Of a stretch of DNA of 64,000 bases, positions 35,187 through 57,532 are shown piece by piece. This DNA is from Bacteroidaceae bacterium (GTDB lineage: Bacteria > Bacteroidota > Bacteroidia > Bacteroidales > Bacteroidaceae). The notes beneath the pieces were generated by a model, which saw only the letters and a list, made by a program, of their open reading frames with translations, did not search any database and had not been told where the DNA came from. How positions within the stretch are numbered: position 1 is the first letter of the stretch; each line of letters begins with the position of its first letter. The position numbers and the translations under genes are program-made. The stretch spans positions 1-64,000 of the forward strand of contig JAGCDQ010000056.1 in the NCBI GenBank assembly GCA_017651245.1, written 5' to 3'.

Positions 35187-35669
35187 ATGAGAAAAAGTAT
35201 TTTGATGGGTTTAGCATTCGTTGCTGCCCTTGCCTTCGTTTCATGCAAATCATCTGAAAGTAGCTACAAGAAGGCATACGAAAAAGCTAAGGCACAGGAG
35301 ATGGCACAAGCCAACAGCACCGACCAAGTTGAGTCAGCCCCAGTGACTGTGACACCTGTCGTCACCACCCCTGTCACTACAGCAGCCAACACAGAGAACG
35401 ACCGTCAGGAGCGTCTCACCGTCATGAATGGTGGCACTCTCAAGGCATTCAACGTAGTTTGTGGTTCTTTCAGCAATGTTGACAACGCCAACAACCTCCG
35501 CAACACCCTCGTTGCCAAAGGTTACTCTGCACAAGTGGCACAGAACCCAGAGACAGGCATGTATCGCGTCATCGCTTCTTCATTCGACGATCGCGCTTCA
35601 GCTGTTCAGTCTCGCGACCAGCTTCGTGGCACCTACCCCGACGCTTGGCTCCTCTACCGCACTTACTAA
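35187..35669 (+). CDS. SPOR-domain lipoprotein
   Basis: 160 residues. A lipoprotein signal peptide (MRKSILMGLAFVAALAFVSC, with the lipidated Cys at 20) is followed by a Thr/Val/Pro-rich linker and a C-terminal SPOR domain (about 85-160, KAFNVVCGSFSNVDNANNLRNTLVAKGYSAQV, then YRVIASSFDDRASAVQSRDQLR). SPOR domains bind denuded septal peptidoglycan, so a role at the division site or cell wall is expected. It is transcribed alone, with its own promoter and terminator. Confidence 0.9.
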   Translation: MRKSILMGLAFVAALAFVSCKSSESSYKKAYEKAKAQEMAQANSTDQVESAPVTVTPVVTTPVTTAANTENDRQERLTVMNGGTLKAFNVVCGSFSNVDNANNLRNTLVAKGYSAQVAQNPETGMYRVIASSFDDRASAVQSRDQLRGTYPDAWLLYRTY

Positions 35670-41187: not shown

Positions 41188-41586
41188 GGGGATGACTGGA
41201 TTTGACAGCAAGCCGAGGTGGTACGTAAGCATGCAGAGAGTCGATGCCCCTCTCTCAAATCTCAGACATCAAAGAATTAATTGGCGAAACTCGTTACGCT
41301 CTCGCTGCTTGATCGAAGCTTAGTAAATCGAGCCTAATTCCCTCGCTAGGCGTGGGAACGAGACATCGCCCAGAAAGCCATCCGTCCTGAGGCGTTCTGA
41401 TCAGCGGTGCTATAAATTCAGGAATAGTCGACAGTAGCCTCGTGCTGCCGATGAAACTTTAGAGGATAAGGGTACAGTTGGTGGTCTTGGTCTTGCTGTA
41501 TCACGAAAACCAAAGGCAAGAATAAGCATGTAGAAAGCGTATGGCGTCCTTGTTTGGACGAGGGTTCAATCCCCTCCATCTCCACA
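41188..41586 (+). ncRNA. ssrA: tmRNA
   Basis: Transfer-messenger RNA, which with SmpB rescues stalled ribosomes. The 5' end GGGGATGACTGGATTTGACAG and the 3' end (GTTCAATC T-arm, then CCTCCATCTCCACA) pair into the tRNA-like acceptor stem (GGGGATG with CATCTCC). The tag frame at 41283-41312 reads Gly-Glu-Thr-Arg-Tyr-Ala-Leu-Ala-Ala-stop (GETRYALAA), ending in the usual ALAA protease signal. The 3' CCA is not fully encoded. Its 3' terminus is partly duplicated 88 bases downstream (41659-41676). Confidence 0.95.
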
Positions 41587-41588
41587 AA
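41571..41588 (+). repeat. tmRNA 3'-end direct repeat, copy 1
   Basis: CCCCTCCATCTCCACAAA, the end of tmRNA, is identical to 41659-41676. Confidence 0.85.
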
Positions 41589-43902: not shown

Positions 43903-44655
43903 TTAAATCACTTCGAGAGTATTGACTGGCACCCAACCTTGCTTGCCTTCTTCAAATTTCACTTCCATCCAATCCTTCATCGAACTATCCAGAATCTCCA
44001 CCTTTGAACCTTCATGGATGAGGAAGAGGTCGGTGCTGGTTTCGCTGGGCGAACTCTTCACCGTCACGGCTGGGGCAAGGATAATGGCTGTGTCACGATG
44101 AGTCAAATCGGCATATTGAGAGACCGCCGCCAAGTTGGCGATAATGACAATGACCAGCAAAACCATAGCACCATACACACCAATCTTACGCACCGTCAGC
44201 TGGGACATGAAGATATACACCAGCACACCCACGAGCATCAAGATGAATGCTGAGACACCAAGAATGGTCCAAGCATTGATGCTCATGCAGTTGGTCAAGT
44301 CGCGCCACCAAGTGACAAAGAACATCTCGGAAGGAGGCACCACCTTGTCGATGGTCTTTCCACGTGCCAAAGCGAGGTTGGCACGAATATCTGCATCCCC
44401 TGGGTCCAACAGGAAAGCACGTTCGTAGTTGAGGACCGCCAAGGGTATTTCATCTAACTTATAGTAGCAGTTACCCAAGTTGTAATAGACTTCGGATGCC
44501 ACACCTTCTTGTTTCATCAAAGACTCATAAGCCTCCACAGCATCACGATACTGTTCCTTCTCGTAAAGGGCATCAGCATCGGCTTTGGTTACGGCAAACG
44601 CTATGCTAAATGATAAATGAAAAAGGATAAATGATAATGATAGTATCTTTTTCAT
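43903..44655 (-). CDS. batE: BatE: TPR and SH3-like protein
   Basis: 250 residues. Signal peptide (MKKILSLSFILFHLSFSIAFA), TPR repeats (about 24-95, YYNLGNCYYKLDEIPLAVLNYERAFLLDPGDADIRANLALA), two membrane helices (about 130-150 and 158-178) and a C-terminal bacterial SH3 domain (about 195-250, VKSSPSETSTDLFLIHEGSKVEIL...GWVPVNTLEVI). This is the BatE layout. It overlaps batD by 4 bases. Confidence 0.9.
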   Translation of the reverse strand: MKKILSLSFILFHLSFSIAFAVTKADADALYEKEQYRDAVEAYESLMKQEGVASEVYYNLGNCYYKLDEIPLAVLNYERAFLLDPGDADIRANLALARGKTIDKVVPPSEMFFVTWWRDLTNCMSINAWTILGVSAFILMLVGVLVYIFMSQLTVRKIGVYGAMVLLVIVIIANLAAVSQYADLTHRDTAIILAPAVTVKSSPSETSTDLFLIHEGSKVEILDSSMKDWMEVKFEEGKQGWVPVNTLEVI

Positions 44656-46517
44656 AGGTTGTCCTCCATTTTACTGATAGCACTAATGGCGCTATTATAC
44701 ACATTCTCCATGGTCTCGTTCACATCACCTGGTGCATAGCGGGCAAACTCACAGTCGTTCAGCACTTTCATGAACTGCTGTATCTGCTCTTCAGGCACTT
44801 GACGTGAAGTCAACGACTGTTCGATGTTCTCCTTGTTCAACGACTCTTGCGACATATTGAACTTGTCGCCCACATAGCCCCAGAGAGCACGAAGCACCTC
44901 ATCGTAGAACTTGCCTGTATCGTGACTATCCAACAACTTCTTGGCGGCCTTCATGCGTCGGAGTGCCACCTTGTTGGCTTTCTTGCCACGTGAGAGAGCC
45001 ACATTGGCATTGGCTTTCATCTGTTTGCGTCCCAGCACCAACATTAAAACAAACAGCACCAACGGCAAACCATAAGCCATCCAATATTTCCACGTGCCAA
45101 AGAAGGTGTCACCAGGCTGATGCAACTCCACATCCCCCTTCTTGATGAAACGGATGTCTTGATTCAGCTGCTGCACATCCTGTTGCTGACCGCTATAATT
45201 GGAAACGTTCTGACCTGCCCCACCCTTGCCTTTGTTCACCTTCAGAGTGTAGGCTTCCGTCTTGAGGGTCTTGTAGGAACGAGATTCTGTATCGAAATAG
45301 ATGAAGTTCGCTGAAGGAATCTCATAAGTGCCTGCATGACGGGGTACAAACAGATACTCAAAGTCCTTAGTGCCTGCCAAACCTGAACGAGTCAACTGGA
45401 AATTGTCGTTCACCTTGGCATCATACGTCTCAAAGTCCTTTGGGAACGGCACATCGGGCGTGCCTATCAGCTTCATATTACCACTACCCTTTACACTTAT
45501 TTTCAGTGTAACAGCCTCGTTGGCATCCACCTCTTTCGTGCTGATGCTGGAAGAAAGGGAGAATTTGCCTACAGCTCCAGAGAAGCCTTCTGGTTTGTTG
45601 GGCAACGGAGAAACGTTGATAGTGAGGGCTGGTGTCGCAATCTTGCGCTTCACCTCTGTGTAACCACTTTGCCCATTGAAGAAGGCTTCGATGGGGTCGA
45701 GGTTTCGGTTGCGAGTCACCACCACACCTTCATAAGTGATGGCTGGGATGGTCAATTTACCCGACTTCTGAGGGAACAATAGATACTGACTCCATATCAC
45801 ACTCCGATAGTTCCTTCCATTATACTGCTCAATTGAGAACTCCTTGGTACGGGGCAGAGGTATCTCCTGAATCTGGAAGCCGTCAAGAGTTGGAAGTTTA
45901 CCGTCCAACTGTGTCAAATCCACCAACGTGTAAATCTTGTAGGTCAGCAAAATAGCCTCCTGTTCATGCACATTGGTGCGTGAGGCAGTCGCTGTCATGA
46001 AGAGATCCCTGGCTGAGATGTTGGAAGAGGATGATGCAGCAGGAGCAGAGGATTGGCGTCCTCCTCCATTATTGCTGTTATTTCCGCCACCATAAGCACC
46101 ACCTCCATTGGAAGCACCACCTGCACCACCTGATAAAACCCTCACCTGAACAGGTTTGGATTTCACCACCTTGCCATCCACATTCACACTGGCACTTCCG
46201 ATAGTGAAGGAACCTGGACTCTCAGCAAGAAGAACATAAGTATAGATAATGCTGCTGCTCTGCGAAGTGCGTCCATTGATCATCTGGAAACTGCTCTGCG
46301 AAGAGGTGGCAGGACCATAGATAACTTCAAAGCCTCTAAAGTCAGGGGCACTGAAGCCTGATACATTTTGTGTGTTGACCGTGAACTGCACCCTGAACTT
46401 TCCGCCTGCCTCCACTGAAGAAGGTGCAGAAACACGGAAAGACACCTCGTCAGCTAAAACACTGACGGAGATGCACATACATATATATAAATAGAATAGC
46501 CGTTTCATCTTTACCAA
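44652..46517 (-). CDS. batD: BatD oxygen-tolerance protein
   Basis: 621 residues. A signal peptide (MKRLFYLYICMCISVSVLA, from an ATG at 46508; the frame also allows 46517) is followed by a long beta-rich exported region with BatD repeats (SFRVSAPSSVEAGGKFRVQFTV; VLLAESPGSFTIGSASV; SSISTKEVDANEAVTLKISVKGSGN), a Gly/Asn/Ser-rich linker near residue 130-165, one membrane helix (about 475-495, WMAYGLPLVLFVLMLVLG) and a cytoplasmic helical tail. Its start overlaps batC's end. Confidence 0.92.
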   Translation of the reverse strand: MVKMKRLFYLYICMCISVSVLADEVSFRVSAPSSVEAGGKFRVQFTVNTQNVSGFSAPDFRGFEVIYGPATSSQSSFQMINGRTSQSSSIIYTYVLLAESPGSFTIGSASVNVDGKVVKSKPVQVRVLSGGAGGASNGGGAYGGGNNSNNGGGRQSSAPAASSSSNISARDLFMTATASRTNVHEQEAILLTYKIYTLVDLTQLDGKLPTLDGFQIQEIPLPRTKEFSIEQYNGRNYRSVIWSQYLLFPQKSGKLTIPAITYEGVVVTRNRNLDPIEAFFNGQSGYTEVKRKIATPALTINVSPLPNKPEGFSGAVGKFSLSSSISTKEVDANEAVTLKISVKGSGNMKLIGTPDVPFPKDFETYDAKVNDNFQLTRSGLAGTKDFEYLFVPRHAGTYEIPSANFIYFDTESRSYKTLKTEAYTLKVNKGKGGAGQNVSNYSGQQQDVQQLNQDIRFIKKGDVELHQPGDTFFGTWKYWMAYGLPLVLFVLMLVLGRKQMKANANVALSRGKKANKVALRRMKAAKKLLDSHDTGKFYDEVLRALWGYVGDKFNMSQESLNKENIEQSLTSRQVPEEQIQQFMKVLNDCEFARYAPGDVNETMENVYNSAISAISKMEDNL

Positions 46518-47278
46518 TCTTTCTCTAAACTCCGACGTTTATTATTCTGATTCTTATTGACCTTCTGTTGCACTCCCTTCTCGTCCTGCTGGGCAGAGTT
46601 GAGCAATTGTTCGGCAACCTGGTCACTCATATCATCTTTCTTTTGTGTAGGCTGAGGTTGTTGCTGCTGTTGCTGCTTCTCCTCATCCTTTTTCTGCTGT
46701 TCTTGCTTTTGCTGATCCTGCTTTTGCTGATCTTGTTTCTGTTGCTGGTCTTGTTTATCCTTGTTCTTGTCATCATTACCACCGCCACCATTCTGTTGCT
46801 GCTGGTCTTGATTCTTCTTCAGCTGATGTTGTGCCATCGCCAGATTGTAACGGGTTTCATCATCCTCTGGATTGCAACGCAAAGAACTCTTGTAGAAGTT
46901 GACGGCATTCTGGAATGCTGCCACTGCATTGCCTCCCTGTTGACGTGTGGCAGCCATACCTTGCGCATACCAAATATTGCCCATATTGTGGAAGTTACGT
47001 GCCTTGCGCATCGGATCGTTGGTGCCAATAGAGTCAGCCTTCTTATAGTTCTCAAACGCTGTTGAGTCCTTCATCTGCATCACGTAGGCATTACCCAAGT
47101 TATAGTAAGCCTCAAATGAAGGATTCTTGGCTATCGACTTCAAATACATCGTCTCCGCCTTGTCATATTGCTTCTCACGATATGCCTTGTTGCCCATACG
47201 GATAAAGTCGCGGGCACTCTGAGCCATCATCGGCAAGACAACCATCATCAATAATATGCTAAAGATATATCTTCTCAT
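46511..47278 (-). CDS. batC: BatC: TPR protein with Gln-rich tail
   Basis: 255 residues. Signal peptide (MRRYIFSILLMMVVLPMMAQ), then TPR units (AYREKQYDKAETMYLKSIAKNPSFEAYYNLGNAYV and following). Residues about 160-225 form a Gln/Lys/Asp low-complexity tract built of repeated DQQKQ units, with a run of six Gln. The C-terminus is basic (NKNQNNKRRSLEKDW). TPR proteins in the Bat cluster probably scaffold the VWA proteins in the periplasm. Confidence 0.88.
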   Translation of the reverse strand: MRRYIFSILLMMVVLPMMAQSARDFIRMGNKAYREKQYDKAETMYLKSIAKNPSFEAYYNLGNAYVMQMKDSTAFENYKKADSIGTNDPMRKARNFHNMGNIWYAQGMAATRQQGGNAVAAFQNAVNFYKSSLRCNPEDDETRYNLAMAQHQLKKNQDQQQQNGGGGNDDKNKDKQDQQQKQDQQKQDQQKQEQQKKDEEKQQQQQQPQPTQKKDDMSDQVAEQLLNSAQQDEKGVQQKVNKNQNNKRRSLEKDW

Positions 47279-47304
47279 CTTCTCAGATACATTTGAATTG
47301 CTTG

Positions 47305-48327
47305 TTAATTAAACAGTTTGAACTTCTCGAACCAATGATTCTTTCGTTCCATGATGCAGAGTTCCGCCAGCAGGACAAAGAACAGCAACAATGCCACAGC
47401 CACGAACTGCTCGTCATATTCGGAGTACATCGACTGCGAAATGTCTTCTTTCTGCATCTTTTCTATCTCCTTCTCCAGAAGCGACTGCGCCAAATTGGTC
47501 TGATCCACATGCACATACATGCCGCCACCAGCCTGAGCGATGTTCTTGCCTATCTGCTCGTTCAGCTTAGTCGTCACCACATTGCCAGAGAGGTCTCGCT
47601 TATATGTTCCATCGCTCATGGGGATAGGTCCACCCTGTTCTGTTCCCACCGAAAGGACAAAAATCTGGATACCCTCTTTCCTTGCCTCCTTGGCAGCTTC
47701 GATGGCACCTTCCTCATTGTCTTCCGCATCAGTGATCAAAATAAGCGCACGCCCTACATTGACATCCTCCTTCTTGGAGAAACCAGCTGTAGCACGAGTG
47801 ATAGCCTCTGCCACATTGGTACCCTGAATGGAAATGGTGGCAGGATTCAGTTGGTCGAGGAACATCTTGGCAGAGACATAGTCGCTAGTCATGGGCAACA
47901 ACGTGATGGCACTACCTGCAAACGCCACCAACCCCACCTTGTCTTCGTCAAACTGCTCAATGAGCTTGCTGACAATCATCTTCGACTTGTCCAATCGGCT
48001 GGGACTCACATCCTGGCACAACATCGAGTTCGACACATCGACGGCAATCGCCACTTCGATGCCAGAACGCTTCACTTCCTCATTCCTGGTGCCGAATTGG
48101 GGACGTGCCAGCACCACAGCCATCAATCCCACCGCCAGCATCATCAGGGCAAACTTCACATGACGACGCACAGGTGACACATCAGGCATCAGGCTACGCA
48201 TCAGTTCTGGGTCACCAAACATCTTGATTTGCTTCTTCATCCTGTACTGTACCAGCACATACACGGCGGTAAAGACAGGAATGAGAATCAACAGATATAA
48301 GTATATTGGACTTGCAAATCTAAACAT
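47305..48327 (-). CDS. batB: BatB: VWA membrane protein
   Basis: 340 residues. Two N-terminal membrane helices (about 8-28 and 58-75) lead to a von Willebrand A domain with an intact MIDAS: DVSNS (97-101), the Thr in QGTNVAEAI and the Asp in LITDAEDNEEG. One more helix lies near the C-terminus. It lies in the batA-batB-batC order usual in Bacteroidota, 13 bases after batA. Confidence 0.93.
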   Translation of the reverse strand: MFRFASPIYLYLLILIPVFTAVYVLVQYRMKKQIKMFGDPELMRSLMPDVSPVRRHVKFALMMLAVGLMAVVLARPQFGTRNEEVKRSGIEVAIAVDVSNSMLCQDVSPSRLDKSKMIVSKLIEQFDEDKVGLVAFAGSAITLLPMTSDYVSAKMFLDQLNPATISIQGTNVAEAITRATAGFSKKEDVNVGRALILITDAEDNEEGAIEAAKEARKEGIQIFVLSVGTEQGGPIPMSDGTYKRDLSGNVVTTKLNEQIGKNIAQAGGGMYVHVDQTNLAQSLLEKEIEKMQKEDISQSMYSEYDEQFVAVALLLFFVLLAELCIMERKNHWFEKFKLFN

Positions 48328-48339
48328 AAGCTTCTCTAT

Positions 48340-49329
48340 TTAGGGCAATCTCTTCAACACCACAGTTCTTAACAAAATCTCCAGCAACAAGACAACCAGT
48401 GCAGCAAGGGCGAAAGGCTGATACAATTCTCCACGACGGCTGAACTGCTTGACATTGAACTTGGTACGTTCCATCTTGTCGATGTCTTGATAGATAGCAT
48501 CCAGTTCCGCATTCTTCTGGGCACGGAAATACTGTCCACCTGTCTCTGTGGAAATTTTAGTCATCGTCTGTTCATCAATCTCGACTGGAAGCATCACCGT
48601 TCCACCTGTTGGCAGCGGATAAGGTGCCATACCATTGCGACCAATACCAATCGTGTAGATACGGATACCATATTTCTTAGCTATTTCAGCTGCTGTCTGT
48701 GGAGAGATATTTCCAGAATTGTTCACACCATCCGTCAAAAGGATAATCACCTTCGACTTTGCCTGACTCTCCTTCAGTCGGAGAATGGCGTTCATGATAC
48801 CGTCACCAATCGCTGTTCCATCATCAATAATGCCACGTGCTGCCATATTGCAATCTACGCTATTATACAGGTTCATCAACACAGCATGGTCTGTGGTCAA
48901 TGGGCATTGTGTATATGCTTCTCCCGCAAACATCGTCAAACCCATATTGTCATTGGGACGTTTCTCGATAAACCGCTGTGCAATCTCCTTCAGTGCCTCC
49001 ACACGGTTCGGCTTGAAGTCCTGTGCCAACATGGAAGTGGACACATCGACTGCCAGCATGATATCAATACCCTCCACATCGGTATCACTCCATGAGTGCT
49101 TGCTCTGCGGACGTGCCAAAATGCACACCACCAGCGAAATCAAGATGAGTCGCAACAGGAAGGGCAAGTGCATCAGGTATAGACGGAATGTCTTGGGCGC
49201 CTTCACATACTTGGTCGTGTCTGGCACCTTCAGCGATGGCAAGCTCTGCTTAAACCGCATCACATACCATACGATATACGGCACGAGCACCAACAGCAAC
49301 AGGAAGAATAAAGGATTCTTAAATTCCAT
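48340..49329 (-). CDS. batA: BatA: VWA membrane protein
   Basis: 329 residues with the same layout as BatB: helices at about 8-24 and 57-72, then a VWA domain with an intact MIDAS (DVSTS at 95-99, DGTAIGDGI, LLTDGVNNSGN), and a final helix. The Bat proteins were linked to oxygen tolerance in Bacteroides fragilis; the molecular role is still unclear. It starts two bases before the preceding gene's end. Confidence 0.93.
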   Translation of the reverse strand: MEFKNPLFFLLLLVLVPYIVWYVMRFKQSLPSLKVPDTTKYVKAPKTFRLYLMHLPFLLRLILISLVVCILARPQSKHSWSDTDVEGIDIMLAVDVSTSMLAQDFKPNRVEALKEIAQRFIEKRPNDNMGLTMFAGEAYTQCPLTTDHAVLMNLYNSVDCNMAARGIIDDGTAIGDGIMNAILRLKESQAKSKVIILLTDGVNNSGNISPQTAAEIAKKYGIRIYTIGIGRNGMAPYPLPTGGTVMLPVEIDEQTMTKISTETGGQYFRAQKNAELDAIYQDIDKMERTKFNVKQFSRRGELYQPFALAALVVLLLEILLRTVVLKRLP

Positions 49330-49330
49330 C

Positions 49331-50416
49331 TTATAACGTCAACATATAAATTCTATATCCAACAAATATCAACACACCCAGCAACACCAGACTTGCCACC
49401 ACGATAGAGCCAACCATCGTCCACTTGGCAATCTTCGAACGCTTCTCCTCCACCACAATCACTTCGGGTTGCGGTTTCTGTTCAGGTTCTTCCAGTTTAG
49501 TCTGGTTGATATATTCAATGGCACTGACCAGATTGCGGTCATTCTCATTGATGAGGGTGCTATACTTCGCAAACTTCACCAAGTCAGCCGTCTGGAAAAG
49601 CTCTCGCAATTCGTTGATGGCTTCTTCGTCATTCACCTCCTGCAACTTCTGGATAATCTCGTAGGAAGTCATCTCCATCGCGTTGAAGCCATAACGCTCC
49701 TTGATGTAATTACGCAGCGTGTCAGTCAGTTGCGTGTAGTACTCCTTCGAGTCTTCACTCTGCCATATCTTCTCTTCCTTGATCTGCGCAATCTTCTCCA
49801 TCGCCACCTTGTGAGGAGGTTGGCGACGCTTGTTACGGATGCGACGAATAATCGGCTTATTGGTCTTCAAACGGTAAATCACATAGCCTAACAGACCACC
49901 TATCAACAAAGCCAAGACGAAGAACCAGATGACCTCTTCCCATTCAGCCCAGTCAAACGGAGGAGCCAATTCCTCTTTAATACCGAAAATGCTGTCACCA
50001 TGAAGCGTGTCTATCTCAAAGGTCAATACCTTCAATGCCAGCTTCTTCGATTGATATTCCTTACCATCCACCTTTACATCCATCACAGGCATCAGATAGA
50101 GTGCGGAATCGAAGGACGTAAAATAGTAACGACGGGAAAGCATCATGCGCTTGCCATCGTTCAGGAAACTGGTGTCAGCCTTCTCGGCACGAACAAACTC
50201 AATACCTGGCACCACCTGTTCCAGAGAGTCCCACTCAGGCAGTTCCACGTTCGATTTGGCATCGGCACTCACCTCTAAGGTCATACCGATTCGCTGACCG
50301 ATATAGATGTCAGCCGAATCCAATTTAGCATCTACTGTCACTTGTGCGTTCACTTTCACAACGCACATTAAACAGCAGATTGTCAATGCGATATAATGTC
50401 TTATTTGCTTCATCAA
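49331..50416 (-). CDS. Bat-operon membrane protein
   Basis: 361 residues, no firm family name. A signal peptide (about 1-24) is followed by an exported beta domain (AQVTVDAKLDSADIYIGQRIGMTLEVSADAKS...), a membrane helix (about 164-185, VIWFFVLALLIGGLLGYVIY), a long cytoplasmic helical region (RRIRNKRRQPPHKVAMEKIAQIKEEK..., NYIKERYGFNAMEMTSYEIIQKL) and a last helix at the C-terminus. The exported part resembles a short BatD repeat. It lies between the DUF58 gene (4-base overlap) and batA and is conserved there. Confidence 0.82.
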   Translation of the reverse strand: MMKQIRHYIALTICCLMCVVKVNAQVTVDAKLDSADIYIGQRIGMTLEVSADAKSNVELPEWDSLEQVVPGIEFVRAEKADTSFLNDGKRMMLSRRYYFTSFDSALYLMPVMDVKVDGKEYQSKKLALKVLTFEIDTLHGDSIFGIKEELAPPFDWAEWEEVIWFFVLALLIGGLLGYVIYRLKTNKPIIRRIRNKRRQPPHKVAMEKIAQIKEEKIWQSEDSKEYYTQLTDTLRNYIKERYGFNAMEMTSYEIIQKLQEVNDEEAINELRELFQTADLVKFAKYSTLINENDRNLVSAIEYINQTKLEEPEQKPQPEVIVVEEKRSKIAKWTMVGSIVVASLVLLGVLIFVGYRIYMLTL

Positions 50417-51282
50417 CTCCTTCTTCTAAACAAATTCATCAAAGCCTTCACATAATCCTCATCCGTCCTGACAGAGATGTTGTCGATGTTTGATTTCGTA
50501 AAGGCATTCTTCAACCAAGACTGATGACTCACCCACCATTCATGATGCGCACGGCGAACAGCACTGGATGAGGTGTCGATGAAAGTTTCCCCTCCTGTCT
50601 CCGCATCCAACATCTTCACAATGCCCACATCGGGCAGCTCCATCATACGACGATCATAAATCTGCAATGCCACCACATCATGACGGCTGTTAGCGATGGT
50701 CAGTTGATTGGTATAGTCTTGTGGGTCAAAGAAGTCGCTCAACAGGAATACGGTACAGCGCTTCTTGATAGCATTGGTCATGAACTCCACAGCCTGTCCC
50801 ACATCAGTCTTGTTACTCTCAGGTTGAAAGGTCAACAGTTCACGAATGATGAAAAGGATATGTTTCCTTCCCTTCTTGGGAGGAATGAACTTCTCCACCT
50901 TGTCAGAAAAGAAAATCACGCCAATCTTGTCATTATTCTGAATGGCAGAAAAAGCCAAGGTGGCGGCAATCTCCGTGAGCAACTGACGCTTTGTCTGTGT
51001 CTGAGTACCGAAATCCAATGAGCCCGACACATCGACCAACAGCATCACCGTCAACTCACGTTCCTCTTCAAAGACCTTCACAAAAGGCTTTCCGAAACGG
51101 GCAGTCACATTCCAGTCAATGTCACGGACATCATCACCATACTGATATTCCCTGACTTCACTGAATGCCATACCCCTACCCTTGAAGGCGGAATGATACT
51201 CGCCTGCAAAGATATTGTTCGAGAGTCCTTTGGTCTTAATCTCGATTTTCCTGACCTTCTGTAACAGTTCTTCTGTTTCCAT
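50413..51282 (-). CDS. DUF58 protein of the MoxR-Bat operon
   Basis: 289 residues, cytoplasmic. The DUF58 block GRGMAFSEVREYQYGDDVRDIDWNVTARFGKPFVK is clear near residues 35-70, followed by a VWA-like domain with LLVDVSGSLDFGTQ (DxSxS MIDAS). It is the usual partner of MoxR ATPases. It begins 29 bases after moxR and overlaps the next gene by 4 bases. Confidence 0.92.
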   Translation of the reverse strand: METEELLQKVRKIEIKTKGLSNNIFAGEYHSAFKGRGMAFSEVREYQYGDDVRDIDWNVTARFGKPFVKVFEEERELTVMLLVDVSGSLDFGTQTQTKRQLLTEIAATLAFSAIQNNDKIGVIFFSDKVEKFIPPKKGRKHILFIIRELLTFQPESNKTDVGQAVEFMTNAIKKRCTVFLLSDFFDPQDYTNQLTIANSRHDVVALQIYDRRMMELPDVGIVKMLDAETGGETFIDTSSSAVRRAHHEWWVSHQSWLKNAFTKSNIDNISVRTDEDYVKALMNLFRRRS

Positions 51283-51311
51283 CCCTACTCTAAGCTCTAA
51301 ACGCTAAACCA

Positions 51312-52307
51312 TCAAGGCACTTCAACCTTATTCAAAATCTTGCTGATGATTTCCTCGCTGGTCACATTGCTTGCCTCAGCCTCATACGTGAGACCTATAC
51401 GGTGGCGAAGCACATCCTGAGCCACAGCACGCACATCCTCTGGAATCACATATCCACGATGCTTGATGAAAGCATAACTGCGAGATGCCAAAGCCAAGTT
51501 GATAGATGCACGTGGTGAACCACCAAAGCCAATCAAGCCCTTCAGTTCCTTCAGGTTGTACTTGTCAGGATAACGGGTGGCAAACACGATGTCGGCGATG
51601 TACTGTTCAATCTTCTCGTCGAGATACACCTCGCGCACAATCTTGCGAGCCTCCTCAATCTCTCCCGTTCCCATCACAGGACGGATGTCCAGTTTCTCCT
51701 GCTTGATGTTCTGGCGAATGATGGCCTTCTCCTCCTCCAGTTTCGGATAGTCAATCACCACCTTCAACATGAAGCGGTCCACCTGTGCCTCAGGCAGCGG
51801 ATAAGTACCTTCCTGCTCAATGGGGTTCTGGGTAGCCAGCACGAGGAATGGCTTGGGAAGTTCGTAAGTCTGGGTGGAGATAGTCACCTGACGCTCCTGC
51901 ATTGCCTCGAGCAAAGCACTCTGCACCTTGGCTGGAGCACGGTTAATCTCATCTGCCAGAATGAAGTTGGCGAAGATAGGACCCTTCTTTGCCTTGAACT
52001 CGCCATCCTTCTGCGAATAAATCATGGTACCGATGACATCGGCTGGCAGCAAGTCAGGCGTGAACTGAATACGACTGAACTGTGCATCAATCAGCGATGC
52101 CAATGTCTTGATGGCTTTCGTTTTTGCCAAACCAGGCACACCTTCAAGCAACACGTGTCCATCAGAAAGAAGTCCCAACAAGAGGGACTCTACCAGATGC
52201 TTCTGTCCGATGATAGCTTGATCCATGCCTGTCATCAGATTTGTCACAAACGCCGAGTGGCGTTCAATCTTTTCGTTTAATTCTCTAATGTCAATAGCTT
52301 CTGCCAT
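51312..52307 (-). CDS. MoxR-family AAA+ ATPase
   Basis: 331 residues from the ATG at 52307 (MAEAIDIRELNEKI); a further-upstream start would include a Cys/Lys-rich leader that looks non-coding. Walker A is GVPGLAKTK (56-64), Walker B sits in FILADEINRAPAKVQSALLEAM, and sensor 1 in LVLATQNPIEQEGTYPLPEAQVDRFMLKV. MoxR proteins are chaperone-like ATPases that act with VWA proteins, here the Bat set. It is the first gene of an operon of seven or eight genes. Confidence 0.93.
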   Translation of the reverse strand: MAEAIDIRELNEKIERHSAFVTNLMTGMDQAIIGQKHLVESLLLGLLSDGHVLLEGVPGLAKTKAIKTLASLIDAQFSRIQFTPDLLPADVIGTMIYSQKDGEFKAKKGPIFANFILADEINRAPAKVQSALLEAMQERQVTISTQTYELPKPFLVLATQNPIEQEGTYPLPEAQVDRFMLKVVIDYPKLEEEKAIIRQNIKQEKLDIRPVMGTGEIEEARKIVREVYLDEKIEQYIADIVFATRYPDKYNLKELKGLIGFGGSPRASINLALASRSYAFIKHRGYVIPEDVRAVAQDVLRHRIGLTYEAEASNVTSEEIISKILNKVEVP

Positions 52308-52338
52308 ATTTATTACGTTTTGTTTACATTTTCTTATG

Positions 52339-52346
52339 CAAAGATA
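52339..52346 (-). promoter_or_regulatory. -7 box of the moxR-bat operon
   Basis: TATCTTTG on the minus strand, 32 bases before the moxR start. No TTG at the usual distance. Confidence 0.5.
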
Positions 52347-52440
52347 CACCATTCTCCCCACTTCATCGCCCTAACAAATCTTAAAAAATCTTGTATTGTG
52401 CCGTTTTTAAGAATCATTAAAAGTTTAAGGGCAAAACAAA

Positions 52441-52466
52441 ACCGCTTGCCTATCAAGACAAGCGGT
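52441..52466 (-). terminator. Terminator of the ftsY-rimO-HU transcript
   Basis: A perfect 8-base-pair stem (ACCGCTTG with CAAGCGGT) around a 10-base loop; on the minus strand it is followed by TTTGTTTTG. It lies 23 bases past the HU-LysM gene. Confidence 0.8.
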
Positions 52467-52488
52467 TATATATCAATAGTTTGTTCCT

Positions 52489-53736
52489 CTATGGGAGTTT
52501 CACGACAGCCCCCACAGGAATGTTGTCGGGGTCGGCAAAGGTGTTGACGCGAAGGAGGGCTCGCACAGAGTCCTTCGTGCCATAGTATTTCTGGGAAATG
52601 CGCGTGAGCGATTCACCTCGTTGCATCCTATGGGTGGTTGGGCGTTCTGGCTTCTTCTCTTCCGCCACCTTCACGCTGTCAGCCTTCTGTGCCTTGGCAA
52701 GCGAATCTTTATCCACCTTCGGTGCTGCAGGCTTAGTGGGCTTTGCGGGTTTGGTAGGCTTGGCAGGTGTTGTAGGTTTAGCAGGCTGTTCCACCTTCTG
52801 CACATTCTCAACTGCCTCTATATTCTGATGAATCAGATAGATAAAGAGACCTAACACTGCCAACAGCAACACGACAAGCGCAGTCACCCAGAAGCGTTTG
52901 TTGCTTGACTTCTTTTCTTGAGACTCATCCTCTTGTGTCTTAGGCTGTTCAGTCATCACGCGATGGAGGGCCTCCTGACGCTTCGTCTCATCATTAGGTT
53001 CATGTTCTTCCGTTGGAGTCTCTGGCATCACATACGTAATATCTCCATCATCATCATCGTCTATTTCTGAGTTTTCACTCTGTTGAGCTAAAGGTTGTGT
53101 ATTTTCCGTGTGAGCTTGAACTTCCTCTGGTTCCACATTCTTCTCCAATCTCTCCAGCAGCTTCTCCAGTCTCAACTTCTCTGCATTGGCTTTACGTGCT
53201 TCCTCCACAGCCTCTTCCATCTTTGCCTTTGCCTCCTCATATTGCTGACGGACTTCCTCCACACTTTCAGGCGTGGAAATGAGCAAATCAATACCGGCGA
53301 AAGCATCTTGCGGTGTCTCTACATGCTCAGGCTCAGGAACTTGTATCAATTTTTCTATCTCAACAGGCTTCTCTTCACTCACAGAAACTGAAGCTTCTAT
53401 TTCTGTATGTTCTGTGGTTTCCGTGTAAGATTGAGCATCACTTTCCGTGCGACCACTCAATACATCCACCACACTATCCTCTGCCGTGAAAGCCAGTTTC
53501 TTATATCCAGGGATGACAAAACGCTTGCCTGTGGACACATTCACACTCTCACGGTCACCAACCTCCACCAGTTTGAACGTACCTAAGCCCTTGATCTTGA
53601 CAACCTCTCCAGTCTTCAATGCCTCTACAATCGTATCAAAAAATGCCTTGGCGAAAGTGTCTGACACCTTCTTCGACACGCCCGACTTTCGTGCCAGTGT
53701 GTCGGCGATACTTTGGAATGATAGTTTCTCGTTCAT
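52489..53736 (-). CDS. HU-like DNA-binding domain / transmembrane / LysM protein
   Basis: 415 residues with an uncommon layout. Residues 1-92 are an HU/IHF-like domain (SIADTLARKSGVSKKVSDTF, VVKIKGLGTFKLVEVGDRESV, with the arm tip VSTGKRFVIPGYKKLAF). An acidic stretch and a coiled coil (about 158-200) follow, then KKSSNKR and one membrane helix (283-303). The outer part is a Pro/Lys/Ala-Thr linker (about 315-345, PAKPTKP repeats) ending in a LysM domain (367-414, THRMQRGESLTRISQKYYG...VGAVVKLP). Positive charges before the helix predict a cytoplasmic N-terminus, so DNA and peptidoglycan binding would lie on opposite sides of the membrane. It is 4 bases after an ordinary HU gene. Confidence 0.85.
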   Translation of the reverse strand: MNEKLSFQSIADTLARKSGVSKKVSDTFAKAFFDTIVEALKTGEVVKIKGLGTFKLVEVGDRESVNVSTGKRFVIPGYKKLAFTAEDSVVDVLSGRTESDAQSYTETTEHTEIEASVSVSEEKPVEIEKLIQVPEPEHVETPQDAFAGIDLLISTPESVEEVRQQYEEAKAKMEEAVEEARKANAEKLRLEKLLERLEKNVEPEEVQAHTENTQPLAQQSENSEIDDDDDGDITYVMPETPTEEHEPNDETKRQEALHRVMTEQPKTQEDESQEKKSSNKRFWVTALVVLLLAVLGLFIYLIHQNIEAVENVQKVEQPAKPTTPAKPTKPAKPTKPAAPKVDKDSLAKAQKADSVKVAEEKKPERPTTHRMQRGESLTRISQKYYGTKDSVRALLRVNTFADPDNIPVGAVVKLP

Positions 53737-53740
53737 AAGG

Positions 53741-54019
53741 CTATTCTTTGTTGAGTTGCGCCTTCAGTGCCGCACTCATTTTATAGCTGAGTGTGGTCTT
53801 CGACGGTACCACCATATAGGTCTTGGAGGTAGGGTTATAAATCTTGCGACTTGCTTTCTCACGAGGTTCAAACGAACCAAAGCCCTGAATGGTCACGCTG
53901 TTGCCATCGGCAATTTCATCCAGCACAACACCAATCAGCGAAGAAGAAAGTTCCTTCACTTCGTCCATCTCGAGGTGGGTCTTCTGCGAGATTCTTTCTA
54001 AAAATTCCTTGTTCGTCAT
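53741..54019 (-). CDS. HU/IHF family DNA-binding protein
   Basis: 92 residues, typical HU length. MTNKEFLERISQKTHLEMDEVKELSSSLIGVV is the helical half and GNSVTIQGFGSFEPREKASRKIYNPTSKTYMVVPSKTTLSYK the beta-arm half, including the GFGSFEPREKA signature. The arm lacks the usual Asn-Pro pair at the exact tip (YNPTSKT is close to it). It overlaps rimO by 4 bases and lies 4 bases before the HU-LysM gene, so the two HU-type proteins are made together. Confidence 0.92.
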   Translation of the reverse strand: MTNKEFLERISQKTHLEMDEVKELSSSLIGVVLDEIADGNSVTIQGFGSFEPREKASRKIYNPTSKTYMVVPSKTTLSYKMSAALKAQLNKE

Positions 54020-55317
54020 CTTGTCACTTTACCATATAAATCAAAATCGTCGGAATCAACGACCTGAACATTGTAGAAACATCCTTTTCTTAACGTGCCA
54101 TCAGCCACAGGTATCAGCACTTCGGGGTCAACCTCTGGTGAGTCAAATTCCGTACGTCCCACATAATACTCCCCTTCTTTGCGGTCGATGATGACCTTGA
54201 GAACTTTCCCCACTTTTTCTGCCTGCACCTCTGCCGAAATGCCCTGCTGCAAATCCATCAACTCACTGAGCCTCCGTTGCTTCACCTCGTCTGGCACCTC
54301 ATCCTCAAAGTTCTTCTGAGCGGGCGTACCCTCCTCTTCCGAATAGGCAAATGCCCCCATCCTGTCAAAGCGTGCCCAACGCACAAACTCTTTCAATTCC
54401 TCAAACTCCTGCTCTCCTTCACCTGGGAATCCAACCATCAAGGTGGTGCGTAAGGCAATACCCGGCACTTCCTTCCTGATGCGCTCAATCAGTTCGTAGG
54501 TCTCCTCCTTGTTCACATGGCGTTGCATGTTAGTGAGCACCTTCGTACTGATGTGTTGCAGGGCGATATCCAGATACTTGCATACATTCTTTTTCTCCCT
54601 GATCACCCTCAGCAACTCCCAAGGGAAATTCATCGGATAGGCATAATGGAGGCGAATCCACTTCACACCCTTCACCTCACTCATCCGCTCCACCAGTTCC
54701 GCTATCTTCTGTTCGCCATAAAGGTCTATGCCATAGTAAGTCAGCTCCTGCGCGATCACCTGAAACTCCTTCACACCCTCACTCACCAAGTGCTCCACCT
54801 CTGCCACAATCTCCTCCATCGGACGGCTCTGATGATGTCCTGTAATCAAAGGGATGGCACAATAGGCACAATGACGGTCACAACCCTCCGAAACCTTCAG
54901 GTAGGCATAGTGCTTGGGAGTCGTCAGGCGGCGTTCATTCTGGCGTTCCTGCTGATACACCTTTCCCAAGTCATTCAGCAGATTCTTCCAGTCGAACTTG
55001 CCATAAAACTTGTCCACCTGCGGAATCTCATGCCCCAGCTCCTTCATGAAGCGCTGAGAGAGACATCCCATCACATACACCTGCTTCACACGCCCTTCTT
55101 CCTTTGCCTGACACAGTTCCAGAATCATGTTCACACTTTCTTCCTGTGCGTCAGCAATGAAACCGCACGTATTCACCACCACAATCTCACCCTGCGGATG
55201 TTCGCTGTCATGCGTCACATGGTACCCATTCAACTCCAACTGGCGAATCAGCCTTTCCGAATCCACCAGATTCTTCGAGCACCCCAAAGTGATTATATCT
55301 ATCGTATTCCTCTTCAA
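54016..55317 (-). CDS. rimO: Ribosomal protein S12 methylthiotransferase RimO
   Basis: 433 residues. The N-terminal UPF0004 domain carries cluster-binding cysteines (LGCSKN, VNTCGFI, MGCLSQR), the radical-SAM core has CDRHCAYCAIP (CxxxCxxC), and the C-terminus is a TRAM domain (about 370-433). It adds a methylthio group to an Asp of ribosomal protein S12 using two iron-sulfur clusters. It lies between ftsY and the HU genes, a common order in Bacteroidota. Confidence 0.95.
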   Translation of the reverse strand: MKRNTIDIITLGCSKNLVDSERLIRQLELNGYHVTHDSEHPQGEIVVVNTCGFIADAQEESVNMILELCQAKEEGRVKQVYVMGCLSQRFMKELGHEIPQVDKFYGKFDWKNLLNDLGKVYQQERQNERRLTTPKHYAYLKVSEGCDRHCAYCAIPLITGHHQSRPMEEIVAEVEHLVSEGVKEFQVIAQELTYYGIDLYGEQKIAELVERMSEVKGVKWIRLHYAYPMNFPWELLRVIREKKNVCKYLDIALQHISTKVLTNMQRHVNKEETYELIERIRKEVPGIALRTTLMVGFPGEGEQEFEELKEFVRWARFDRMGAFAYSEEEGTPAQKNFEDEVPDEVKQRRLSELMDLQQGISAEVQAEKVGKVLKVIIDRKEGEYYVGRTEFDSPEVDPEVLIPVADGTLRKGCFYNVQVVDSDDFDLYGKVTR

Positions 55318-55391: not shown

Positions 55392-56351
55392 TCAACCCTC
55401 TCCAAACAAGCTTTCCACAAACGCCTTGCGGTTGAATGCCTGCAAGTCTTCCATTCCTTCTCCCAGTCCAATATACCGCACTGGAATCTTGAACTGGTCG
55501 CTGATGCCGATGACCACACCACCCTTTGCCGTTCCATCCAGTTTGGTGATGGCCATTGAAGTAACTTCCGTTGCCTTGGTGAACTGTTTCGCCTGTTCAA
55601 AGGCATTCTGTCCTGTCGAGCCATCCAGCACCAGCATCACGTCATCAGCCTCATAGCCAGCAGCCTTCTTCACAGCGTTCTTTATCTTGGTCAACTCATT
55701 CATCAAGCCCACCTTGTTGTGCAGACGACCAGCCGTGTCGATAATCAGCACGTCTGCCCCATTTGCCTTAGCTGAGCTGACAGCATCAAATGCCACAGCG
55801 GCAGGGTCACTGCCCATCTGCTGCTTCACCACAGACACTCCCACTCGTTCACCCCAGATGCAAATCTGCTCCACTGCTGCTGCACGGAAAGTATCGGCAG
55901 CACCCAGATACACCTTCAGACCTGCTTCCTTGAACTGATATGCCAACTTGCCAATCGTGGTCGTCTTGCCCACGCCATTCACACCCACCACCAGAATAAT
56001 GTAAGGCTTATGTGCGCCCTCTGGTATCTGGAAACCCTCCGTGTCCTCTGTGTTATTCTCAGTCAGCAAACCAGCAATCTCCTCACGCAAAATCTTGTTC
56101 AGCTCATCCGTGCCCACATACTTGTCGCGAGCCACCCTTTCCTCTATCCTGCGGATAATCTCCAACGTCGTGTCCACACCCACATCACTCGTGATCAGCA
56201 CCTCCTCCAAATCGTCCAACACATCATCATCCACCTTCGACTTGCCTGCCACCGCACGGGCAATCTTGCCAAACACGCTTTCCTTCGTCTTGGCGAGTCC
56301 ATTATCCAGCGTCTCCTTCTTTTTCTTGGAGAACATATCAAAAAATCCCAT
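55392..56351 (-). CDS. ftsY: Signal recognition particle receptor FtsY
   Basis: 319 residues: a short basic N-terminus, an SRP-GTPase helical bundle (about 15-100) and the NG GTPase domain with VGVNGVGKTTTIGKLA (G1), DTFRAAAVEQ, IIDTAGRLHNKVGLMNEL (G3) and ITKLDGTAKGGVVIG (G4). It docks ribosome-SRP complexes at the membrane. It lacks the long acidic region of the E. coli protein, as is usual in this phylum. Low-complexity TTTCAACT units fill the spacer to rimO. Confidence 0.95.
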   Translation of the reverse strand: MGFFDMFSKKKKETLDNGLAKTKESVFGKIARAVAGKSKVDDDVLDDLEEVLITSDVGVDTTLEIIRRIEERVARDKYVGTDELNKILREEIAGLLTENNTEDTEGFQIPEGAHKPYIILVVGVNGVGKTTTIGKLAYQFKEAGLKVYLGAADTFRAAAVEQICIWGERVGVSVVKQQMGSDPAAVAFDAVSSAKANGADVLIIDTAGRLHNKVGLMNELTKIKNAVKKAAGYEADDVMLVLDGSTGQNAFEQAKQFTKATEVTSMAITKLDGTAKGGVVIGISDQFKIPVRYIGLGEGMEDLQAFNRKAFVESLFGEG

Positions 56352-57458: not shown

Positions 57459-57532
57459 TGATCCGGTTGGGATTCGAACCCAAGACCCACAGCTTAGAAG
57501 GCTGTTGCTCTATCCAGCTGAGCTACCGGACC
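57459..57532 (-). tRNA. trnR: tRNA-Arg (TCT)
   Basis: On the minus strand: acceptor GGTCCGG/CCGGATC (one G-U), D-arm GCTCAGCTGGATAGAGC, anticodon stem CAGCC/GGCTG type around CTTCTAA (anticodon TCT), and T-arm GGGTTCGAATCCC. The 3' CCA is not encoded. It has its own promoter about 110 bases upstream. Confidence 0.95.

Follow-up and report, generated by a model that had tools for sequence, protein, structure and literature searches.

IHF is a heterodimer of an alpha and a beta subunit encoded by two genes. For another type of HU-fold protein, HU-CCDC81, a role in chromosome partition has reportedly been predicted, and its eukaryotic CCDC81 relatives are said to act in protein contacts. Bacteroidales are dominant and genetically tractable gut bacteria. 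A clade of HU proteins restricted to Bacteroidetes, HU_bacL, carries a long charged C-terminal extension with a mean length of 238 aa, including 19 K, 9 R, 13 D and 31 E, according to the accessible text of Kamashev et al. 2017 (PMC5683647). Besides, the mycobacterial nucleoid protein Rv3852 is held at the membrane by a C-terminal helix, as stated in the accessible part of PMC8233713.

The locus described here lies in the window, which is the whole stretch of 64,000 nucleotides that was analysed, and contains the following features.

52489..53736, minus strand: HU2-TM-LysM gene, an ORF of 415 aa with ATG start, named HU2
53467..53712, minus strand: HU domain of HU2, residues 9-90 (Pfam and alignments)
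53137..53265, minus strand: heptad (coiled-coil-like) region, residues 158-200 (heptad shuffles)
52831..52887, minus strand: single transmembrane helix, residues 284-302 (hydrophobicity, with a basic flank on the N side)
52717..52785, minus strand: Pro/Lys/Thr-rich linker, residues 318-340, predicted periplasmic (read directly)
52492..52623, minus strand: LysM domain, residues 372-415 (Pfam, whole-genome family search, and family profile against solved LysM chains)
53741..54019, minus strand: HU1, a companion HU of 92 aa keeping Asn62-Pro63, immediately upstream of HU2 (Pfam and alignments)
54016..55317, minus strand: rimO (NCBIfam TIGR01125, E 2e-139)
55392..56351, minus strand: ftsY, upstream neighbour (NCBIfam TIGR00064, E 5.5e-103)
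52440..52467, minus strand: terminator-like hairpin of 12 pairs, then TTGTTTTG, just after HU2 (hairpin scan)

The earlier note had read in 52489..53736 an HU/IHF-like domain, a coiled coil, a single hydrophobic helix preceded by positive charges, a Pro/Lys linker and a C-terminal LysM domain, and it turned out that all five can be found in the window protein. Bac_DNA_binding (PF00216) matches residues 9-90 (E 7.7e-17; 61.8 bits with a cut-off of 22.4) and LysM (PF01476) matches residues 372-415 (E 4.6e-6; 26.9 bits with a cut-off of 20.9), so that both domain matches exceed the curated Pfam cut-offs. The helix at 284-302 has a Kyte-Doolittle mean of 2.97 with EKKSSNKRF directly on its N-terminal side, and the linker PAKPTTPAKPTKPAKPTKPA was read directly from the sequence. 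The heptad pattern of residues 158-200 was reached by 0 of 5000 shuffles.

Relatives were collected from genome searches and from a named genome collection, which gave 79 kept loci of 524 confirmed stretches, among the matches listed. In total 171 loci were scanned, and the loci of the window's own genome and second copies (L009, L027, L030, L034, L036, L037, L094, L095 and L101) were left out before counting. Of 147 rows, L072, L086, L114 and L115 have no HU part, and counting identical proteins once reduced the remaining 143 to 137 distinct HU2-bearing proteins, window included; L103, L022 and L153 end before LysM in the sequence available, and loci L199-L205 and L230-L239 stand outside these counts. 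Named carriers include Dysgonomonas, Parabacteroides goldsteinii, Bacteroides reticulotermitis, B. pyogenes, Phocaeicola plebeius, P. coprophilus, Barnesiella, Coprobacter, Paludibacter and Alloprevotella tannerae; the protein of L067 (G091, window's family) is identical to the B. pyogenes protein of L178, so that the window belongs to the family of Bacteroides in the delimitation used by the database, with a probably Prevotella-like genus. Of 158 genomes sampled evenly across the order, 47 match at E<=1e-11 and the architecture was confirmed in 27 of them, while the other 20 gave HU-only or LysM-only rows, mostly unopened. Among the matches listed for 149 class genomes, frames with both parts exist in the window's own genome, in 3 of the same family and in 1 more of the order, and in none of the other 144. 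With 137 distinct proteins, a chance ORF fusion or an assembly artefact was rejected, and the HU2 layout is no chance fusion. A viral source was rejected as well, for viral contigs scanned once with the window protein gave no relative.

The region between the HU domain and the helix varies across these relatives. IDLLISTPE stands directly before the heptad region in the window, and since IDxLISTPE is found in just 33 of 137 proteins, the region before the coiled coil lies outside the conserved plan; in this respect the coiled coil of the earlier note is present in the window protein but is no part of what the family keeps. Two mutually exclusive motifs were observed after the HU domain, IDxLISTPE (33 of 137) and NxPFxxF (84 of 137), with 0 proteins having both and 20 neither, and they are possible partner sites.

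HU1 matches PF00216 (E 2.4e-21; 76.2 bits with a cut-off of 22.4) and ends 4 bases before the start of HU2, and its start codon overlaps the stop codon of rimO (ATGA). The identities of rimO and ftsY, as given in the earlier note, are borne out by the NCBIfam matches of both genes. The hairpin at 52440..52467 is the probable end of the operon; 8 terminator-like sites were found in the region against 4.4 expected from shuffles, an excess of about twofold that is weak alone. Directly downstream of HU2, a gene row occupies 44652-52361 on the minus strand, which we take to resemble the moxR - DUF58 - von Willebrand/TPR type. Elsewhere in the window there are a SPOR-domain protein (35187-35669, plus strand; PF05036, E 8.2e-14), lipoprotein-like by eye, a tmRNA (41188-41587, plus strand) and a tRNA (57459-57532, minus strand).

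The pairing is kept throughout the family: HU1 lies just upstream of HU2 with a gap of at most 145 bases in all non-fused proteins (135 of 135), and the HU1 stop overlaps the HU2 start in 76 of these 135 loci. Upstream rimO was found in 102 of 137, some loci being too short to tell and others truly having no rimO there, and moxR is located downstream of the pair in 89 of 137. The companion had been taken for an ordinary HU protein. An HU gene does stand directly upstream, but it is not ordinary, for HU1 forms its own clade and a canonical HU is encoded elsewhere in the same genome (G000:C29). In a tree with 17 canonical HUs (L001 and 16 standalone HUs of the class survey, longer-frame L075, L081, L089, L092 and L093 excluded), HU1 forms one clade (30 of 30, support 0.97) and HU2 another (30 of 30, support 0.90). 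Judged by this tree, HU1 is a co-inherited sister clade.

For HU2 itself, 136 of 137 proteins have the membrane helix, the exception being cut by the contig end, and one protein has a second, weaker stretch. Counting 15 residues on each side of the helix, the N side is more basic in 105 of 136, equal in 15 and less basic in 16; this simple positive-inside count supports an N-in topology, as the earlier note had it, on a hydrophobicity test that is no trained topology predictor and with 31 of 136 proteins having no more positive charge inside.

Kbp is a LysM protein that binds potassium. In the wider family, LysM is divergent, with a Pfam LysM match at E<=1 in 10 of 26 members, and the family profile matches solved LysM chains including Kbp (7pvc, E 2.6e-12), so that peptidoglycan binding is uncertain. 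Both observations would suit a LysM with a non-peptidoglycan ligand, in which case HU2 would be a membrane-anchored nucleoid protein with no wall contact, as in mycobacterial Rv3852, where we know of no periplasmic wall-binding domain. Rv3852 gives a precedent for such anchoring, according to the accessible part of PMC8233713. However, the window LysM is above the Pfam cut-off and its predicted periplasmic position faces the wall. Of the readings weighed here, this is the least probable.

The total protein length ranges from 252 to 724 aa, and this wide range and the architecture are compatible with a transmembrane sensor, in which LysM would read the state of the wall and the HU pair would alter transcription or release HU1, in the manner of other membrane-bound one-component regulators. 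Against it, HU folds are mostly non-specific DNA binders and Pfam found no sequence-specific DNA-binding domain in the window HU2. Such a sensor is very unlikely in our view.

To compare the DNA-contact faces of HU1 and HU2, we counted residues on an alignment numbered by canonical HU, at positions that we take to contact DNA. All 17 canonical HUs and 132 of 135 HU1 proteins keep the proline at the arm tip (P63), whereas only 2 of 135 HU2 proteins have it, which in Bacteroidales are those of L111 and L118. K/R at position 55 occurs in 16 of 17 canonical HUs, 130 of 135 HU1 and 0 of 135 HU2; the corresponding counts are 17 of 17, 131 of 135 and 1 of 135 at position 74, and 17 of 17, 128 of 135 and 1 of 135 at position 80. 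In the arm half, the net charge averages +8.7 for canonical HU, +7.1 for HU1 and -0.1 for HU2, and HU1 exceeds HU2 in each of the 135 loci. For instance, the arm of the window HU2 reads RESVNVSTGK, with Val67 in place of the HU arm proline. Six proteins have no HU2 arm at all, from L113 and L116 (one family), L117, L186 and the fusions L068 and L112. HU2 is still basic at some sites: 127 of 135 proteins have K/R at 58 and 131 of 135 have it at 76, where just 1 of 17 canonical HUs does, and at 86 it occurs in 90 of 135. HU1 in turn departs from canonical HU at 61 (K/R in 2 of 135 against 14 of 17). By P63 and a basic arm and saddle, HU1 belongs with the DNA-bending HU/IHF proteins and HU2 does not. 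On these residues HU2 is a protein that has lost much of its DNA-contact face, HU1 being largely spared. As HU2 is short of the arm proline and several basic contacts, DNA contact, if any, is more likely made through HU1.

The pair also exists outside the class. In a phylum sample, full-length matches were found in one family of another class (f186), where a match at E<=1e-24 exists in 31 of 39 genomes, and in the loci read (e.g. L240-L249) HU1 adjoins HU2-TM-LysM in 10 of 10. rimO is beside the pair in 0 of these 10 loci; in one of them, a MiaB/RimO-type gene (29% identical) lies on the opposite strand at a distance of two genes. Where neighbours were checked, in five loci, they are hemN-type genes (two loci), aconitase and CHAD, sigma-54 and a secreted protein, and four neighbour proteins gave no Pfam match. 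In f186, P63 is kept in HU1 (10 of 10) and in HU2 (10 of 10), and both domains are weakly charged. When both classes were put in one tree, the HU1s fell together (39 of 39) and so did the HU2s (39 of 39), sorted by type and not by organism. We treat the support for this as uncertain (under midpoint rooting 0.334 for HU1 and 0.744 for HU2, against 0.994 and 0.979 on the separating branches). Grouping by type across classes and away from rimO indicates that the pair existed before the rimO setting or has moved as a unit, and so the loss of P63 from HU2 would have come later, in Bacteroidales. The ftsY-rimO setting, though frequent within the order, is not essential, since the pair of the other class has different neighbours; the layout itself is conserved within Bacteroidales. 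A functional link of the pair with rimO/ftsY was rejected, because the pair stays together beside hemN-type, aconitase or sigma-54 genes.

These residues bear on the proposal of the earlier note that the fused HU domain binds DNA itself, as a homodimer or otherwise, so that one molecule reaches from nucleoid to wall. The clear PF00216 match of HU2, its P63 in f186 and in L111 and L118, and the basic residues at 58 and 76 would fit, while 133 of 135 HU2 proteins have no P63, K/R at 55, 74 and 80 is found in at most 1 of 135 at each site, the arm half is about neutral and the arm is missing in six proteins. With the arm proline and the basic contacts gone in nearly all Bacteroidales members, the proposal is unsupported as written, and we consider it improbable.

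The same losses could mean that the HU pair is off DNA altogether and acts as a cytoplasmic protein-interaction module of an envelope or division complex, which LysM would site on the wall. Besides the loss of much of the HU2 face and of six arms, HU1 has no P63 in L113, L116 and L117, the net charge of its arm half is just -1 in L113 and +2 in L116, and in the fused L112 the arm proline is absent from HU1 too; the eukaryotic CCDC81 relatives with their supposed protein contacts would be a parallel. It was observed that L113, L116 and L117 combine an armless HU2 with an HU1 short of its arm proline, and DNA contact may have been given up in these three. Given the loss of P63 and the hardly basic arm halves in HU1, DNA contact cannot be universal. 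However, P63 in 132 of 135 HU1 proteins together with a mean arm-half charge of +7.1 is hard to explain without nucleic acid, and f186 keeps P63 in both proteins in 10 of 10 loci. We consider a pair that works off DNA throughout doubtful, though it carries some weight.

When two adjacent genes are found fused, this is a classic sign that their products touch, and natural HU1-HU2-TM-LysM single chains exist in two loci, both lying between rimO and moxR: L068, with 361 aa, comes from the window's family and L112, with 458 aa, from another one. To the eye, both have a shortened HU1 end and an armless HU2. Searching 151 genomes of the window's family with L068 gave six other matches at E<=1e-25, of which 3 span a stop between HU1 and HU2 and 3 are HU2-side parts, none established as a fusion.

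We therefore prefer, with a probability of roughly 0.5, an HU1:HU2 heterodimer with HU2 at the membrane and the wall and HU1 on DNA, forming a nucleoid-wall link. In this proposal the two co-inherited HU-fold proteins would form a heterodimer in the cytoplasm. HU2 would provide half of the dimer and the anchor, with an N-in helix, a flexible linker and a periplasmic LysM on peptidoglycan, and HU1 would contact DNA through its basic, proline-tipped arm. The complex would tie the nucleoid to the inner membrane and the wall and would help to position or segregate the chromosome; in the Bacteroides/Prevotella group, HU1 and HU2 together could tie the chromosome to the wall in this way. We infer these steps with unequal confidence, the heterodimer being the surest and wall-linked positioning of the chromosome the least sure. 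Counting against the proposal, gene adjacency is common in operons, and the pairing of the two proteins is a prediction.

A wider picture is tentative. The Bacteroidota chromosome might be held to the wall by a split, one-armed HU heterodimer, an old HU pair in which one subunit became a transmembrane, wall-bound anchor and the other kept DNA, and HU-CCDC81/SPOR proteins might form a second link in parallel at a different wall site. With SPOR directed to the septum and LysM to other places, the position of the chromosome might be coupled to the growth of the wall. A co-inherited two-gene HU pair with a predicted wall-binding end is a small and direct test object. It would also be a case of an HU paralogue turning from DNA binder to anchor, a change whose single residues can be followed through the order.

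Compared with IHF and HU, the pair shares the HU fold, with profile matches to solved IHF/HU chains at E values down to 1.4e-26. In IHF and HU, the arm proline is present in both subunits and, unlike HU2, neither of them is bound to the membrane.

A protein of similar plan is present in the same genome: L047 (G000:C74, 1489-2628, minus strand) contains HU-CCDC81 domains 1 and 2, a membrane helix and SPOR, and is a possible second nucleoid-wall link, judging by its domains. HU-CCDC81 domain 1 exists in 50 of 60 class genomes. Among the HU-CCDC81 proteins read, the membrane helix is present in 23 of 23 and starts between residues 161 and 209, and domain 2 is without a long arm (read by eye); under Pfam, both domains were found in 8 of 8 and SPOR in 7 of 8. 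The HU-CCDC81 profile is collinear with the HU1-HU2 tandem (E 3e-10) and weak against HU2 alone (E 1.2e-5), although any two tandem HUs would align collinearly to some extent. As HU folds are all related, it is a likeness of plan, not proof of descent.

PF18174 and PF18175 in one chain are the domain set of Bacteroidota HU-CCDC81 proteins and not of HU1 and HU2, so the window pair falls outside that group: HU2 has a sub-threshold PF18175 match (12.5 bits with a cut-off of 35; the L068 fusion, with 24.7 bits, is also below) and HU1 matches neither, with eukaryotic CCDC81 domain 1 at E 0.052. By Pfam, SPOR is absent after the membrane helix of the window HU2 and LysM stands there instead. By plan, namely an armed HU, a degenerate or armless HU, a membrane helix and a wall-binding domain, the pair does belong with it, in two genes except in L068 and L112, and the proposed complex would have the plan of the HU-CCDC81/TM/SPOR protein of its own genome, which carries two HU folds in one chain. 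Both have two HU folds, of which the second is degenerate or lacks a long arm, one helix and a domain of a predicted peptidoglycan-binding type; HU-CCDC81/TM/SPOR differs in being a single chain, in having CCDC81-type folds rather than PF00216 and SPOR rather than LysM, and in being far wider in the class.

As for HU_bacL, the extensions of HU2 (134 proteins, mean 330 aa) contain 26.4 K, 9.9 R, 20.5 D and 43.2 E, percentages that are nearly those given for HU_bacL in the accessible text of PMC5683647. This close match in composition suggests that HU2 proteins were probably counted within HU_bacL and that the two are probably the same proteins. In that text the extension is viewed as a charged tail that maybe modulates DNA binding, with no HU1 partner mentioned, and the words 'membrane', 'transmembrane', 'LysM' and 'peptidoglycan' are all absent from the main text of PMC5683647. 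If our reading is true, it would correct this printed view of (probably) these proteins as charged-tail HUs.

Within the open-licence papers searched, no description of an HU-TM-LysM protein or of an HU1/HU2-TM-LysM pair was found. Like HU2, Rv3852 is a nucleoid protein with a membrane-anchoring helix, as far as the accessible part of PMC8233713 tells; unlike HU2, it is annotated as H-NS rather than HU and belongs to another phylum. In conclusion, the architecture of HU, membrane helix and wall-binding domain is already known in the CCDC81/SPOR form, and a membrane-anchored nucleoid protein is known from Rv3852 in the same accessible part of that source.
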